The translations under genes and the position numbers were made by a program. From Natronosalvus rutilus (lineage in GTDB: Archaea; Halobacteriota; Halobacteria; Halobacteriales; Natrialbaceae), in the NCBI RefSeq assembly GCF_024204665.1, contig NZ_CP100355.1, forward strand, positions 1,054,001-1,118,000: a DNA stretch of 64,000 nucleotides, given 5' to 3'. Shown piece after piece: positions 45,180-52,190 of this stretch (position 1 is its first letter; every line of letters starts with the position of its first letter). The notes beneath the pieces are model-generated. The model saw nothing but the letters and a program-made list of their open reading frames with translations. It was not told the DNA's origin and ran no database searches.

Positions 45180-45749
45180 GTGTTGTCTATTACGTCACCT
45201 CGCGTCTTCGCCGTTCACCACGACATTTCTCAGGTCGTATCGGATGCTGACGCTCTCTCCGCGGTGTACGACGTTCGCCGCATCGACTTCGACCGATCAA
45301 TCCTTGATCAGCTAGAGGCAGGCGACGACGTCATCCTCGTCGACTGGGAACTCGAGAGTCCGGACCCCAGAGGGGTTCTCGATGCGCTCAGCCAGAACGC
45401 GCCATCGACGCCTATTCTCGCAGTCGCGAGCGACGTCCCGACGGACGACCCCATCGACCGCGGCGCCGACGAGTATCTGGTGACGCCCGTCTCGGTCGAG
45501 AAACTGCGGTCGACGATCGACCGACTGGTTCTCCAGCACGCCTACGAGGAGGCGATGAGCGAGTACTTTCGACTCGCGACGGAGCGGGCGCTGCTCGAGA
45601 ACGAACGCGAGGCGGGTGTCGACGTCGACGAGCGGCACGAGCAGGTACTGGCTGACTTAGACGAGTGGCGAGAGCGGGCGGATTCGATCAGAGGTGAGTT
45701 CTCGCGCGAGGGGTTCGACCGGGCGCTTCGTCGGTTACTCAGCGAATAA
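45180..45749 (+). CDS. HalX-domain regulator with degenerate receiver domain
   Basis: 189 residues from a GTG at 45180. Residues 8-112 follow the response-regulator receiver fold (RVFAVHHD...ILVDWELES...EYLVTPVSVEKL). However, the paired acidic residues that hold magnesium are HisHis (13-14), and the conserved lysine is Thr102; only Asp55 remains. Residues 116-189 are the HalX helical domain (AYEEAMSEYFRLATERALLENE...), a haloarchaeal output module. It probably works without phosphorylation. It is the first gene of the cassette inserted between rps7 and fusA. Confidence 0.82.
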   Translation: MLSITSPRVFAVHHDISQVVSDADALSAVYDVRRIDFDRSILDQLEAGDDVILVDWELESPDPRGVLDALSQNAPSTPILAVASDVPTDDPIDRGADEYLVTPVSVEKLRSTIDRLVLQHAYEEAMSEYFRLATERALLENEREAGVDVDERHEQVLADLDEWRERADSIRGEFSREGFDRALRRLLSE

Positions 45750-45909
45750 CGATTATTCACCCCCGATTTTCTGGCTACCTCGTCGCAGTCCCCTTTTTCT
45801 ATATCAGATCGATGTTTAACTATTTATACTATCAGATTTTCCCATGTATTCTGTGTTTGATTTCTTAAAATAAATTCATTACGTGTCGGTACCATGGATT
45901 GGATGTACT

Positions 45910-46038
45910 ATGACGGAACTTAGCGACTACCTGAAGAACCACCCACGAATGATCGGCGTCCTGTTCACGGCAATGCTGTTGCTGTCCCAGGCGGGGACGG
46001 CCGTTGCTGGAAGCGGAACCTCGTACCACGGACCTTAA
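45910..46038 (+). CDS. 42-residue membrane or secreted peptide (DUF7503-type)
   Basis: A small gene starting at the ATG at 45910 and ending three bases before the end of the convergent CHAT gene. The peptide has a charged N-terminus (MTELSDYLKNHPR), a hydrophobic segment (residues 15-33) ending in AxA, and a tail GSGTSYHGP. A signal peptidase cut after residue 33 would release a nine-residue peptide; otherwise it is a single-helix membrane peptide. From memory it resembles the haloarchaeal DUF7503 family. AT-rich DNA with TATA-like boxes precedes it (45822-45880). Confidence 0.65.
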   Translation: MTELSDYLKNHPRMIGVLFTAMLLLSQAGTAVAGSGTSYHGP

Positions 46039-46041
46039 TTC

Positions 46042-48120
46042 TTACAAATCGTTTACGCTGAGGTCGTTGCTCCAACAAAGTTTATTGTTAGTGATTACTG
46101 GCATTTCCTCTAGTTGAAGGTACTGACTCATCTCTTCTATCGTAATAGTAAACGGACCTATCATTCCTGGCATTAGGAAATAATCTTTAACTTGTTCAAG
46201 ATATGGTGAGAAAATACTTCCTTTTCTTGAAACTGATGCAACATATGTTTCAAGACTAATATCATATCTACACCCATTTTTTTCCAAATGGCATACGTTT
46301 ACATATCCTGTCTCAGATTGGGCAATCGTCGTTGTGCCATCTCCGACCAGTCGATACTGCTGTCCGACGAGACTCTTTTTTCGAGCGAGTTCGAGTGCCG
46401 CGTGAAGCGGATAGCCGCGATTGAGGAGTCGAGCAATTGCAGATCCAACGTTGATTGCACCACTATTAATCACGTCACCGAGCGTGACGATTCCGCCGAT
46501 ACTCCCTGCTTCGACGAGGTGCAGCCCCTGGTCGTGTGACTGGCAGGCGTTGAGCAAAAACGCTTTAGCACCGACGTGCTCAACCGCCGTTCCCGGTAAC
46601 TTTCCGTCTGCACACTGAAATCCCCCTTCGTCGATATGTCCGATGTAATGGAGAAAGTCGCTGTCTCTAGAGAGTACTTCTTCGAGTTCGCCGCTCGTGA
46701 GATCGTAATACTCGGTGACCTGAAACGGGAGCTCCTCCCGGTCTCCGTAGATTCCATTTACTTCTTCCAGTTCCTTCCGCATCTCCGAATCATTACAGAT
46801 GACTTCAATCTCGATGGGATCATCTCGTGGCTCCCGACCAATGTTGTGCTGAAATGCCGATAACGGAGTAGTGCTAGTGATCTGTGCAGACCTGTCGTGT
46901 CTCCACACCTGTTCGATAGTTGCTAACGCTTGTTGGTCGACGTGCTTCGAACTGGATGTGTGTTCTCGTCCTCGACTGGTGTCAGCGCTTCGGACAAAAT
47001 CTCCTCTCGTGAATGATTTGATCGCCTCGATTTGCTCCTGTGGCTGGTTGACATCGTTTTGCTCGTTGTCTTTCACTCGGATGGCTGCGAGGCTATCGGA
47101 AATGAATGGAAGGAATTCGACCGAGTCGGCAGTCGGGTCGAGGTGTGCCTCGAGTCGCCACTCGGGGATGTGCGGTTCGAGTATCGAAAATGGCACGCCT
47201 AGATATGCCTCGAGTTGCTCAGCGAGTGGTTCATCGTATATATCGGCAAGATCGAACTCGAGTGTGGGTTCGACTGCCTTCCGTTCATGAAGCGGAACCG
47301 GAGTCGTTCCCTCCGTTCGAACGATACAATCCAGGAAGAACACCTGCTTCAGGACGCGTTCGACGGTCGCTTCGAATCCTGGATTGCGGTCGAGCGAGTA
47401 TGAAAAACCAGATTTAGTTCGCAACCGCGGCGCTGACCCGGACGTTATCGATGCCCCGAGGTAGTAGGCGAGAGGTGTCACGATGAAGATGTTTCGGAGT
47501 TTCGGTGGCACTTCGATCAGGACGCCAGTATCCGGCTGCTCGAACTGTTCTGGAACGCGAAGTTCGTCGCCGAGTTGAAGTGCAGGCGGGTGTCCCCGAA
47601 GCGTCGGATACGAACGTTCGGGAGACTGTGTTTTTAGGGCTGAGCCAAACATCGATACCGCCGCCATCACGTCCGCTGGATCGCTGGTCGTCGTAATTGT
47701 CCCCGCAGGGCGCGTGTGATACGACCGGACGCCGACGTGGACCTCCGTCGAATCGTTCAGTGATATGTGCGTTCGATCGGAGTCGAAGTAGACGTGTATC
47801 GAACTATCGACGTTGATATACATCTTGAACGGTGTGGACAGTTCGAGCGTATAGGTACCCTCGTCGAGGAACGTCTGTGTTGTCGGCCCGTCGTCGTCGA
47901 TCATTGCTCCCGTTTCGTCACGAATGTGGGGAAAGTCGTTCGTCGGAAGCGTGATCACATCTGCCTGAAATCTAACGGCTGCATCGACGGGGTATCGAAT
48001 ACAATCGGCGCTAACCGGCTTCGGCGACACCGACTCGTGGGTCGTTAATCGGTAGCGATGTCGCTCTATCCGATCGATAATCTCGAGCCCGCCATCGACT
48101 GCTTCGAATGTCGGCTTCAT
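46042..48120 (-). CDS. CHAT-domain (caspase-like) protease
   Basis: 692 residues. The C-terminal third (about 435-610) is a CHAT peptidase domain. The catalytic histidine is in FLHYIGHIDEGG (His495) and the catalytic cysteine in FLLNACQS (Cys526), each after a hydrophobic strand. SIGGIVTLGDVINSGAINVGSAIARLLNRGYPLHAALELAR is the family's helix block. The N-terminal 430 residues, beta-rich at first, have no motif I can name and probably sense or bind a target. GC content is visibly lower than that of its neighbours, which suggests transfer. It follows the RecA-like gene by 67 bases on the same strand. Confidence 0.85.
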   Translation of the reverse strand: MKPTFEAVDGGLEIIDRIERHRYRLTTHESVSPKPVSADCIRYPVDAAVRFQADVITLPTNDFPHIRDETGAMIDDDGPTTQTFLDEGTYTLELSTPFKMYINVDSSIHVYFDSDRTHISLNDSTEVHVGVRSYHTRPAGTITTTSDPADVMAAVSMFGSALKTQSPERSYPTLRGHPPALQLGDELRVPEQFEQPDTGVLIEVPPKLRNIFIVTPLAYYLGASITSGSAPRLRTKSGFSYSLDRNPGFEATVERVLKQVFFLDCIVRTEGTTPVPLHERKAVEPTLEFDLADIYDEPLAEQLEAYLGVPFSILEPHIPEWRLEAHLDPTADSVEFLPFISDSLAAIRVKDNEQNDVNQPQEQIEAIKSFTRGDFVRSADTSRGREHTSSSKHVDQQALATIEQVWRHDRSAQITSTTPLSAFQHNIGREPRDDPIEIEVICNDSEMRKELEEVNGIYGDREELPFQVTEYYDLTSGELEEVLSRDSDFLHYIGHIDEGGFQCADGKLPGTAVEHVGAKAFLLNACQSHDQGLHLVEAGSIGGIVTLGDVINSGAINVGSAIARLLNRGYPLHAALELARKKSLVGQQYRLVGDGTTTIAQSETGYVNVCHLEKNGCRYDISLETYVASVSRKGSIFSPYLEQVKDYFLMPGMIGPFTITIEEMSQYLQLEEMPVITNNKLCWSNDLSVNDL

Positions 48121-48187
48121 CTCAGTAGTCTCTGAAGTCGACCCCGTTCAGACTGGGACACCTGACCGGCGCCTTGATGCACCCCAC

Positions 48188-48958
48188 TCACTGGGTCATC
48201 GGTACCCAGCCGGTGGAGAGGTCGCTCTCTGTGAGCGACCATCGCTCCTGGGCGACGCCGTTCCGTTCTCGAAGTTCGACGACGACATCGAACAGGGGGG
48301 TGATGATCGAGACGGTGCTCGCATCGTGTTCGATGGGGAGCTGGTAGTGGGCGATGCCGCCGGCCGCTCGAGTTCGTCCGTTGAGCAAGTGCAAACACTG
48401 GAACACGGCTTCCCTGCCGTACTCCTCGAGGAACGGCACGAGCGAGTCGACGCCGACGCGAAGCACGCCGGGTTCGAGGTCGCCGTCGCGTTCGAATCGT
48501 TCGATGGCGCTCGAGACGGCGACGCCGACGTCGCCGAGGGTTTCGGCGGTCGTCATCGGTGTCTCGGTGCCTGGTGTCGGAGGTGCTGATGGAGTCGCTC
48601 CCCCCGTCGTCTCTGCCGTCTCCGTCGTTTCCGTCGTTTCCGCCGCCTCCGCCGAGACGCTACGGGTCGTTCCCTGGTAACTGACGATTTCGACGGTCCC
48701 GGAACCTGCGTCGTCGACCAGACGCTCGATGTCAAACTCCGTGCCGGGCGTCGAAATCACGATGCGCTTTCGGTCTTCCTCGGGAGCCGTCCCGAGCAAC
48801 CGGCGAGCGATTACCTGTCGCTGGTCGGCCGCTACGACACCGGTCACGAGGACGTTCGCCCCTCGTCGTTTCAACCGGGACAGTTCGTCGGCGAATGCGT
48901 GCTCCGTCGTCCCATCACGACAATCCTTCCCCGAAAGCATCAGTAGTATGTTCCGCAC
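48188..48958 (-). CDS. degenerate RecA/KaiC-like protein (DUF7504-type)
   Basis: 256 residues from a GTG at 48958; gtttaatg lies about 22 bases upstream on the minus strand, and an ATG at 48940 is an alternative. The segment RGANVLVTGVVAADQRQVIARRLL occupies the place of a Walker A loop but lacks the GK[ST]. VLRVGVDSLVPFLEEYG stands for Walker B. A Thr/Glu-rich linker (about 108-135) splits the domain. It looks like a KaiC-family fold that has lost ATP binding, as in the DUF7504 proteins I recall from haloarchaea. It probably forms one transcript with the CHAT gene. Confidence 0.7.
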   Translation of the reverse strand: MRNILLMLSGKDCRDGTTEHAFADELSRLKRRGANVLVTGVVAADQRQVIARRLLGTAPEEDRKRIVISTPGTEFDIERLVDDAGSGTVEIVSYQGTTRSVSAEAAETTETTETAETTGGATPSAPPTPGTETPMTTAETLGDVGVAVSSAIERFERDGDLEPGVLRVGVDSLVPFLEEYGREAVFQCLHLLNGRTRAAGGIAHYQLPIEHDASTVSIITPLFDVVVELRERNGVAQERWSLTESDLSTGWVPMTQ

Positions 48959-49045: not shown

Positions 49046-49807
49046 TCAATCCGCCGCTCGAGTCCCCTCGCCGACGTACGATCGGGTGGTCTCGACGAGC
49101 ACCTGTCGGTAGGTGCTCGGGTCGGGATCCTGGCTGAGTTCTCGGAATCGCCGTCGGAACGCTTCGAAGTCGATCTGGGGGGCGTCCATCGCCGCCGCGT
49201 GGGCGAGGTCGTACAGGCGGTGGTCGGCGTCGAGCAGGTCGTGTCGCTCGGCGAGTGCGAGCGCGAAGGCCGCGTTGACGGCGGTAATATCGGGATCGGC
49301 GGCGGGGGAGAGTCGTTCGACGCCAGGGCTCGAACCCGGCGGCGTCTCCGGCCGATCACGGAGGGCGGTCGCGAGCGAGGACTCGAGGAACGCCAGCAGC
49401 TTTTCTCCGGGGCCGACCGAGAGCGTGATGTCGTCGGCGTAGATGTCCTTCATGTGGTTGGCGATCTGGTAGCAGTGTGAGAGCTTGTACTGCTCGACGC
49501 GTTGTCCGGCCAGTGCGAGGTAGAGGACCTCTTCCGTCGACTGGACGTGAGAGGGGTGGTCCTGCTCGTGGCGGGCCATGTGGGCGAACTCGTGGAGCGC
49601 GAGTTCGCGCGCCATCGCCGAGGATGCGGCCTGTCTCGAGATGTTGAGCACGTGCCGGTCGTCCTGATGAGCGGCCCAGGTTCGCTCGTCGGGGTCGTCA
49701 CGTAGGTGGACGTAGACGGGGAGTGAGAGGTCACACTCGGTTTCGAACAGGTCCTGGGCGCTGAGAAACGGGGCGGCAGGTCCCGGTCCCTGTATGCGCA
49801 AATCCAT
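49046..49807 (-). CDS. DUF5781-type protein with HEFAH metalloprotease motif
   Basis: 253 residues from the ATG at 49807. HEFAHMARH (His72, Glu73, His76) is a zinc-metalloprotease motif. Downstream helices are rich in Ala/Asp ([29 protein letters not shown]). It fits the haloarchaeal family I know as DUF5781, found beside fusA. It is divergent from fusA with 196 bases between them. Whether it belongs functionally to the CHAT cassette is uncertain. Confidence 0.72.
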
Positions 49808-50003
49808 GTGTGTCCATAACAGGGGTCGGGCGCCTATGGCTCTTACGCCGGTGTTCATCGGCTGTGGATCGAGCACCGGTCGTTGGATGCGTGCTATTAT
49901 CTCACGTAAACTGGTCAATTCGAGTCTCGAGGCGCTCTCCGGGCCCGTTCCCGCCGAGACGAAACAGCACCCTTTTGACCCCGCTACCGGTACAGGTGGG
50001 TAT

Positions 50004-52190
50004 ATGGGCCGACGCAAAAAGATCGTCCAAGAGTGTGAACGGCTGATGGACGAACCGGAGAACATCCGGAACATCGCCATCGCCGCTCACGTCGACCACG
50101 GAAAAACAACGCTCTCCGACAACCTCCTTGCGGGCGCCGGTATGATCTCTGATGAGACCGCTGGCCAGCAGCTCGCGATGGACACGGAGGAAGACGAGCA
50201 GGAACGTGGGATCACCATCGACGCAGCAAACGTCTCGATGACCCACGAATACGAGGACACCAACCACCTCATCAACCTCATCGACACGCCGGGACACGTC
50301 GACTTCGGTGGCGACGTCACCCGGGCGATGCGTGCCGTCGACGGTGCGCTCGTCGTCGTCGACGCCGTCGAGGGTGCCATGCCACAGACCGAAACGGTCC
50401 TGCGGCAGGCACTCCGCGAGGGCGTCAAGCCCGCGCTGTTCATCAACAAGGTCGACCGCCTGATCTCCGAACTGCAGGAAGGTCCCCAGGAGATGCAAGA
50501 GCGTCTCCTCTCGGTCATCCAGGACGTCAACGACCTCATCCGCGGCATGACCGAGGAGATGGACGACGTCGACGACTGGTCGGTCAGCGTCGAGGAAGGT
50601 ACCGTCGGCTTCGGGTCCGCCCTCTACAAGTGGGGCGTCTCGATGCCGTCGATGCAGCGCACCGGCATGGACTTCGGCGACATCATGGCACTCGAGCGCA
50701 ACGACGAGCGCCAGGAACTCCACGAGCGGACGCCGCTCTCGGACGTCGTGCTGGACATGGTCTGTGAGCACTTCCCGAACCCGGTCGACGCCCAGCCCCG
50801 TCGTATCCCCCGGATCTGGCGCGGCGACAGCGAGTCCGAACTCGCCGAGACGATGCGTTTCGTCGACGAGTCCGGCGAGGTCGTCTTCATGGTCACCGAC
50901 ATCTCCATGGACCCCCACGCCGGGGAGATTGCCTCCGGGCGCGTCTTCTCGGGCACCCTCGAGAAGGGCCAGGAGCTGTACGTATCGGGCACCGCAGGCA
51001 AGAACCGCGTCCAGTCCGTCGGCATCTACATGGGTGGCGAGCGCGAGGAAGTCGAGAACGTTCCCGCGGGGAACATTGCCGCAGTCACCGGCCTGCGCGA
51101 CGCCATCGCCGGCTCGACCGTCTCGAGCATCGAGATGACGCCGTTCGAGTCCATCGAGCACATCTCCGAGCCCGTCATCACGAAGGCGGTCGAGGCGAAG
51201 ACGATGGACGACCTCCCCAAGCTCATCGAGACCCTCCGTCAGGTCTCGAAGGAAGACCCCACGATCCAGATCACGATCAACGAGGACACCGGCGAGCACC
51301 TGATCTCCGGACAGGGTGAGCTTCACCTCGAGGTCATCACCCAGCGTATCGAGGCCAACCAGGGCATCCCGGTCAACACCGGCGAACCGATCGTCGTCTA
51401 CCGCGAAGCCGTCCAGCGACCGAGCGACACGGTCGAGGGCATCTCGCCCAACCGCCACAACCGCTTTTACATCTCCGCCGAGCCGCTGACCCAGGACCTG
51501 ATCGAGACGATCCAGCTCGGCGAAGCCTCGATGGACATGCCCGAACTCGAGCGCCGTGAAGCGCTCCAGGAGGCTGGCCTCGACAAGGACACCTCTCAGA
51601 ACGTCGAGCACATCCACGGGACGAACATCCTCATCGACGACACGAAGGGTATCCAGCACCTGAACGAGACGATGGAACTCGTCATCGAAGGGCTCGAGGA
51701 AGCCCTCGACAACGGGCCGCTGGCTGCCGAGCCAGTCCAGGGAACCCTGATCCGGCTGCACGACGCGAAGCTCCACGAGGACACCATCCACCGCGGTCCG
51801 GCACAGGTCATCCCCGCCACGCGGGAGGCCGTCCACAAGTCGCTGATCGACGCCCACATCAAGCTGCTCGAGCCGATGCAGGACGTCCGGATCGACGTGC
51901 CCAACGAGCACATGGGCGCTGCCTCCGGTGAGATCCAGGGCCGCCGTGGCCAGGTCGACGACATGTACCAGGAGGGTGACCTCATGGTCGTCGAAGGCGT
52001 CGCACCGGTCGAGGAGATGATTGGGTTCTCGAGCGACATCCGTTCGGCCACCGAGGGCCGTGCGGCCTGGAACACCGAGAACGCCGGCTTCGACGTCATG
52101 GCCGACTCGCTCCAGCGCGAGACGATCATGGAGATCCGCGAGCGCAAGGGCATGAAGCTCGAGTTGCCGCCGTCGATCACCTACCTCTAA
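50004..52190 (+). CDS. fusA: translation elongation factor EF-2
   Basis: 728 residues from the ATG at 50004, with cttttgac about 28 bases upstream; the in-frame sequence before it is non-coding. The GTPase motifs are [24 protein letters not shown] and INKVD. Domains II-V follow, with the diphthamide loop [14 protein letters not shown] near residue 600, whose His is modified in archaea. It translocates the ribosome. In the ancestral order it follows rps7 directly. Confidence 0.97.

Follow-up and report, generated by a model that had tools for sequence, protein, structure and literature searches.

In bacterial gasdermin systems, a caspase-fold protease is encoded next to a small protein that may act on membranes. 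Another protease encoded next to its partner is found in type III-E CRISPR, in which the CHAT protease Csx29 (TPR-CHAT) cuts its gene neighbour Csx30 and requires the C-terminus of that substrate (PMC10028731). Short peptides carried on small proteins are known from cyanobacteria: a short signal peptide derives there from the small precursors PatS and PatX, the latter of which bears a Sec signal (PMC12756182). In haloarchaea, caspase-like activity has been measured in Haloferax volcanii without a gene being assigned to it, and identification of the protein behind it was urged in that study (PMC3615174). Here we analyse a locus in a 64,000-nucleotide stretch of the Natronosalvus rutilus genome (contig NZ_CP100355.1, positions 1,054,001 to 1,118,000; hereafter the window, with all window coordinates counted from its first letter). 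The core of this locus is a two-gene unit, consisting of a divergent CHAT protease and a convergent peptide of family DUF7503. An earlier note, made from the sequence alone, had called the four-gene cassette around this pair a candidate undescribed protease system, and we found no paper in the open-licence literature that names DUF7503, the neighbouring family DUF7504 or this CHAT family, none on haloarchaeal CHAT proteins, and no published description of the pair.

Like Csx29 and Csx30, the haloarchaeal pair joins a CHAT protease to a gene-neighbour partner that is probably recognised by its C-terminus. Unlike them, it comes without TPR repeats, and neither Cas7-11 nor CRISPR genes belong to the window cassette or to its recurrent neighbours; its partners are about 30–190 residues long, with a short tail usually ending in Gly-Pro, and are mostly chromosomal. 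The protease fold with its His-Cys dyad is that of SAVED-CHAT and separase, but the SAVED domain is absent, and the Asp that sets the Arg preference of separase (S1) is not kept in a hand alignment. The window partner also differs from gasdermin: it is a convergent DUF7503 peptide of 42 residues that soluble tail carriers can replace, and not a pore-former of gasdermin fold. PatS and PatX offer a parallel in that a short conserved motif is carried on different small proteins, one of them with a Sec signal peptide; however, the motif is a different one, there is no HetR, and the haloarchaeal partner gene is tied to that of a protease.

The protease and its convergent peptide

The peptide gene (45910..46038, forward strand; 42 residues, MTELSDYLKNHPRMIGVLFTAMLLLSQAGTAVAGSGTSYHGP) matches Pfam DUF7503 with 80.8 bits (cut-off 27; E=5e-23) over positions 2-42 of 42. 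It lies tail to tail with the gene of a 692-residue CHAT-family cysteine protease (46042..48120, reverse strand), and 3 nucleotides separate the stop codons. The stretch holding the two genes is AT-richer, as had been claimed for the CHAT gene, with a G+C content of 0.42-0.57 versus 0.62-0.67. Pfam and NCBIfam found no CHAT domain and no family above cut-off in the window protein, and only 2 of 40 homologues reach Pfam CHAT (PF12770), at an E-value of about 0.001. The AlphaFold model is nevertheless confident (mean predicted local distance difference test score, pLDDT, 87.9; predicted template modelling score, pTM, 0.88), and its Foldseek matches are SAVED-CHAT (1.2e-6), separase (7.6e-6) and gingipain R (3.1e-5). 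The model comprises an N-terminal region (residues 1-352) with no confident match in a search of PDB structures, a disordered linker (353-397) and the CHAT domain (about 398-692). The Foldseek search gave no TPR match outside the CHAT domain, and comparing the CHAT profile with the sequences of solved structures yielded nothing useful. The catalytic residues His495 (codon 46636..46638, reverse strand) and Cys526 (codon 46543..46545, reverse strand) are each at least 90% conserved in the 40 homologues, and no evident signal sequence was found in the protein. Because of the fold and the near-invariant dyad, and because a Pfam threshold is a detection criterion and not a property of the enzyme, we assign the window protein by its model to the CHAT clan-CD cysteine proteases, as a divergent member with predicted activity; the earlier claim of a CHAT protease with an intact dyad thereby stands. 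The window's own genome also holds a CHAT-like fragment (G000 C1:1016508-1017041; open frame of 212 residues, E=3.5e-15), perhaps a relic.

The pairing extends across haloarchaea. In a first set of 68 DUF7503 loci, CHAT is convergent with DUF7503 in every one, with stop codons that range from a 20-nucleotide overlap to 206 nucleotides apart. A second set of 20 loci, drawn from the DUF7503 match list regardless of CHAT, gave the same arrangement in 19; in the sole exception (L183) CHAT lies 1.4 kb off, with a HalX-domain gene in between. The copy number of the pair varies and copies also occur on plasmids: in 12 of 13 named plasmid records the DUF7503 match adjoins the record's CHAT match, and some plasmid DUF7503 peptides have no annotated gene in the PLSDB table. 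Among 194 haloarchaeal genomes, CHAT is present in 178 (92%) and DUF7503 in 164; all 164 DUF7503 genomes have CHAT, and all 16 CHAT-less genomes lack DUF7503 (Fisher 1.4e-15, indicative only, because the genomes are related). The dedicated peptide partner that had been proposed for the protease is thus borne out, in that the two families co-occur as neighbours in genome after genome. Some loci of the rps7-fusA region (L044, L059, L189 and L201) have tandem CHAT genes around one DUF7503, the second CHAT being without a recognised partner. CHAT homologues also occur in a different class of the phylum, within a single family (L213-L216), and the convergent neighbours of L213 and L215 are related open reading frames of another kind, without a tail partner.

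The partner tail and its carriers

The anatomy of the peptide was counted over 98 distinct DUF7503 sequences. An HPRM motif (45940..45951, forward strand), which is a candidate cleavage site, opens the hydrophobic segment; its Pro is present in 98/98 sequences, followed by Arg or Lys in 96/98 and Met in 82/98. The segment itself (45949..46005, forward strand; Kyte-Doolittle 1.77 over 19 residues), which may be transmembrane or the h-region of a signal peptide, is unusually conserved (HPRMxGxLF..LLLSQAG). An A/V/S-x-A site directly precedes the tail in 97 of the 98 sequences, and 83 end in Gly-Pro. In the window the C-terminal tail is GSGTSYHGP (46009..46035, forward strand) and follows an A/V-x-A site; a tail of this kind is common to all partner types. 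If the peptide were inserted by the positive-inside rule, the tail would point outward according to the predicted topology.

The tail also occurs without DUF7503. A scan of 60 CHAT genes that lack DUF7503 found a convergent small open reading frame ending in Gly-Pro beside 24; its controls gave 0/60 (CHAT strand), 1/60 (further downstream) and a shuffle mean of 1.8. In the main group (clade II) the tail [VI][ST][ST]YxGP sits on a soluble protein unrelated to DUF7503, after a basic stretch such as AKR, and 17 distinct tails show 371 synonymous versus 183 non-synonymous pairwise codon differences. The controls and the synonymous codon changes led us to reject chance Gly-Pro endings. The window's own genome has one such soluble partner, at the CHAT paralogue in L013. 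In three genomes of one genus (g49), with a CHAT 45-46% identical to that of the window, DUF7503 is absent; the convergent open reading frame there repeats a 13-residue unit, [MFY][TN]ADGN[SG][SG]GISGP, 7-13 times in a soluble array and ends exactly at GISGP. Three further species of g49 have 4, 5 and 7 copies in arrays that are likewise convergent with CHAT, and copy number varies by species (L196 4883-5449, L197 4933-5268, L198 2761-3204, L206, L208 and L209). Changes between units of the same array are almost all synonymous (122 versus 0 in L198, 379 versus 41 in L196) and exclusively so in five of the six array species, which indicates that it is the protein sequence of the unit that is maintained. 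The array CHATs are sister, with full local support, to CHATs with the DUF7503 tails AAGNNTGIYGP and AAGNTGVIYGP. These tails match ADGN..GISGP of the array unit; most simply read, the array genus multiplied the tail and dropped the membrane part. Judged by sequence, the conserved part of the partner is its C-terminal tail, the last dozen residues or so, and the same short tail appears on at least three unrelated scaffolds.

The presence of a partner follows the state of the active site. In a tree of 130 CHATs, with the masked fragment L060 left uncounted, His495 and Cys526 are kept in 94 of 94 partnered CHATs (70 with DUF7503, 24 with other Gly-Pro open reading frames), and 18 of 18 CHATs that have lost the dyad have no partner. 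The dyad-less proteins keep much of the N-terminal motif while the active-site residues are gone, and for this reason they look like pseudoenzymes. They are confined to a few clades, which points to a small number of independent events. Such paralogues occur in the window's own genome (L014) and in L145, L147, L150 (three in tandem) and L163-L171.

Optional neighbours of the pair

All four open reading frames of the cassette described in the earlier note are present between rps7 and fusA, with a DUF5781 gene also lying before fusA. The HalX gene (45180..45749, forward strand; Pfam HalX 28.5 bits, cut-off 23.2, E=2e-6) is on the strand of the peptide, and the DUF7504 gene (48188..48958, reverse strand; Pfam E=4e-48) is upstream of CHAT and codirectional with it. 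Over 56 CHAT-DUF7503 loci, DUF7504 lies within 2.5 kb of the pair in 31 (in 23 directly upstream on the CHAT strand) and HalX is near the pair in 13, and all four genes occur together in 12. This vicinity is far above chance, as the 4.3 Mb genome of the window holds only 10 DUF7504 and 8 HalX matches, yet both neighbours are optional, and elsewhere in the same genome they stand side by side without CHAT. Hence, the proposal that the four families form one system is not supported, and a fixed four-gene unit is rejected. The earlier note had the HalX and peptide genes facing the protease and RecA-like genes; this needs correcting in that the conserved feature is the tail-to-tail arrangement of peptide and CHAT only and not the fourfold set.

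The HalX protein had been described as having a dead receiver domain, and its receiver match is indeed below cut-off; the Lys is lost and the acidic pair is incomplete. However, the Asp (VDW) is kept, and the receiver is intact in HalX homologues that adjoin CHAT in other genera, so that the description would fit the window lineage only. The claim of a RecA/KaiC-like protein without a P-loop fits DUF7504 well: its model matches KaiC CI in Foldseek (7.6e-9) and the Walker A P-loop is absent from the window protein, although the paralogue L006 has a P-loop-like GPSMSGKRE. The window DUF7504 is KaiC-like by its modelled fold, and any ATPase role is only putative. The upstream DUF7504 genes are longer in L153, L154, L158, L162 and L193, and the one in L193 is annotated as a HalOD1 output domain protein. 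The DUF5781 protein adjoining fusA (49046-50080, reverse strand) carries the metalloprotease motif HExxH in the form HEFAH and weakly matches the IrrE/M78 peptidase domain.

Readings of the pair

From the pairing, the common tail, its tie to an intact active site and both folds, all established by sequence and model, we infer a dedicated protease-partner pair in which the partner is most likely the cognate substrate and its tail is read by CHAT; we give this reading a probability of roughly 45%. CHAT would be a latent caspase-like cysteine endopeptidase, with its unusual N-terminal region probably sensing a trigger. The convergent small protein would be its private partner, recognised via a C-terminal tail of about 9-12 residues that usually ends in Gly-Pro; the carrier of the tail may be a soluble stub, a tandem array or, in DUF7503, a helix resembling a membrane segment or signal peptide. 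On a trigger, CHAT would bind the tail and cut the partner; for DUF7503 the cut may fall at the conserved HP[RK]M that immediately precedes the hydrophobic segment, and cutting would change the action of the tail or the membrane stub. DUF7504 and HalX would be optional regulators, and Csx29 acting on Csx30 is the precedent for such a pair. A translation-arrest peptide (Gly-Pro-stop) was set aside, because a peptide gene convergent with CHAT allows no action in cis on CHAT translation.

Several observations weigh against a cognate substrate. An intact dyad without a recognised partner was found in 17 CHATs, three of which (L044, L059 and L152) are in tandem with a partnered CHAT. The four homologues from the other class also have no convincing partner, so that tail partners may have been added within haloarchaea. 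The outward tail predicted for DUF7503 contrasts with a CHAT that has no evident signal sequence, and this topology would be a difficulty for every model in which a cytosolic CHAT reads an inserted DUF7503. In addition, the soluble and array partners lack HPRM, so that no single cut site suits every partner type. A cut specific for Arg, at HPR↓M, is one possibility, but with the S1 Asp of separase not kept in the hand alignment, cleavage after Arg has no support.

The exclusive tie of the partner to an intact active site would also suit an inhibitory ligand, with the tail as a pseudosubstrate that keeps CHAT off, as securin does for separase, until loss, export or degradation of the partner activates it. 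This putative binding would make the many-tail arrays multivalent inhibitors, and it accords with a conserved tail on a replaceable remainder and with tandem copies, which would raise the dose; if the predicted topology exports the DUF7503 tail, blocked export would leave the tail cytosolic. We nonetheless consider it rather unlikely, given that the 17 partnerless CHATs with an intact dyad would be unrestrained and that no sequence resemblance of the partner to securin was seen. Alternatively, DUF7503 could be a signal peptide followed by a secreted peptide of 6-9 residues, with the arrays as multi-copy precursors and CHAT as the maturation protease or intracellular receptor. Multi-copy precursors are typical of peptide signals, the A/V/S-x-A site before the short tail resembles a signal-peptidase site, the tail is variable except for its Gly-Pro, and basic residues (AKR) precede the clade II tail. 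Such a precursor is made doubtful by the unusual conservation of the signal segment itself, by an array unit that reaches upstream of the putative signal-peptidase cut, with Asp replacing its Ala, and by soluble partners and arrays without an evident export signal; a recurring transporter neighbour was not noticed.

Systems of cell death and defence are known to employ CHAT and caspase-like proteases, and the earlier note had raised a defence or cell-death role, in which the tiny membrane peptide would be an effector comparable to a gasdermin cut by a caspase-like protease. A single hydrophobic helix preceded by a conserved motif, a varying copy number and the plasmid copies would be in keeping with this. 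However, PADLOC models gave no match to five proteins up to E=1, CHAT was not found in viral contigs or phage records, and there was no viral DUF7503, so that a defence island is rejected; the family is also present in 92% of the 194 genomes, and its recurrent neighbours are translation genes in the window's family and mixed elsewhere. The membrane-peptide effector is weakened further by related CHATs whose soluble partners have only the tail in common, and a membrane pore is unlikely because soluble partners suffice there. Overall, we regard a defence or death module as very improbable. Coincidental neighbours held together by the rps7-fusA position, where the cassette often lies in the window's own family, are barely credible: the pair occurs together at many other sites and on plasmids, and the first set shows no exception to the tail-to-tail order. 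Coincidence is refuted for CHAT and DUF7503, and likely remains for the neighbouring translation genes.

Our control genome, that of H. volcanii, contains DUF7503. Together with its presence in 164 of the 194 genomes, this suggests the CHAT family, through a putative H. volcanii member, as a direct and testable candidate for the orphan caspase-like activity of this model organism, although the reported cleavage after Asp in H. volcanii may or may not fit the family. A broader view, which we hold to be unlikely, is a peptide-based haloarchaeal control in which CHAT has, as its dedicated ligand or product, a short Gly-Pro-ending C-terminal peptide from single- or tandem multi-copy precursors and is itself the source of the orphan activity. 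If true, archaea would gain one of their first known genetically encoded peptide-signal systems. A partner tail that appears on at least three unrelated scaffolds would offer a clean handle on how a caspase-like protease chooses its partner.

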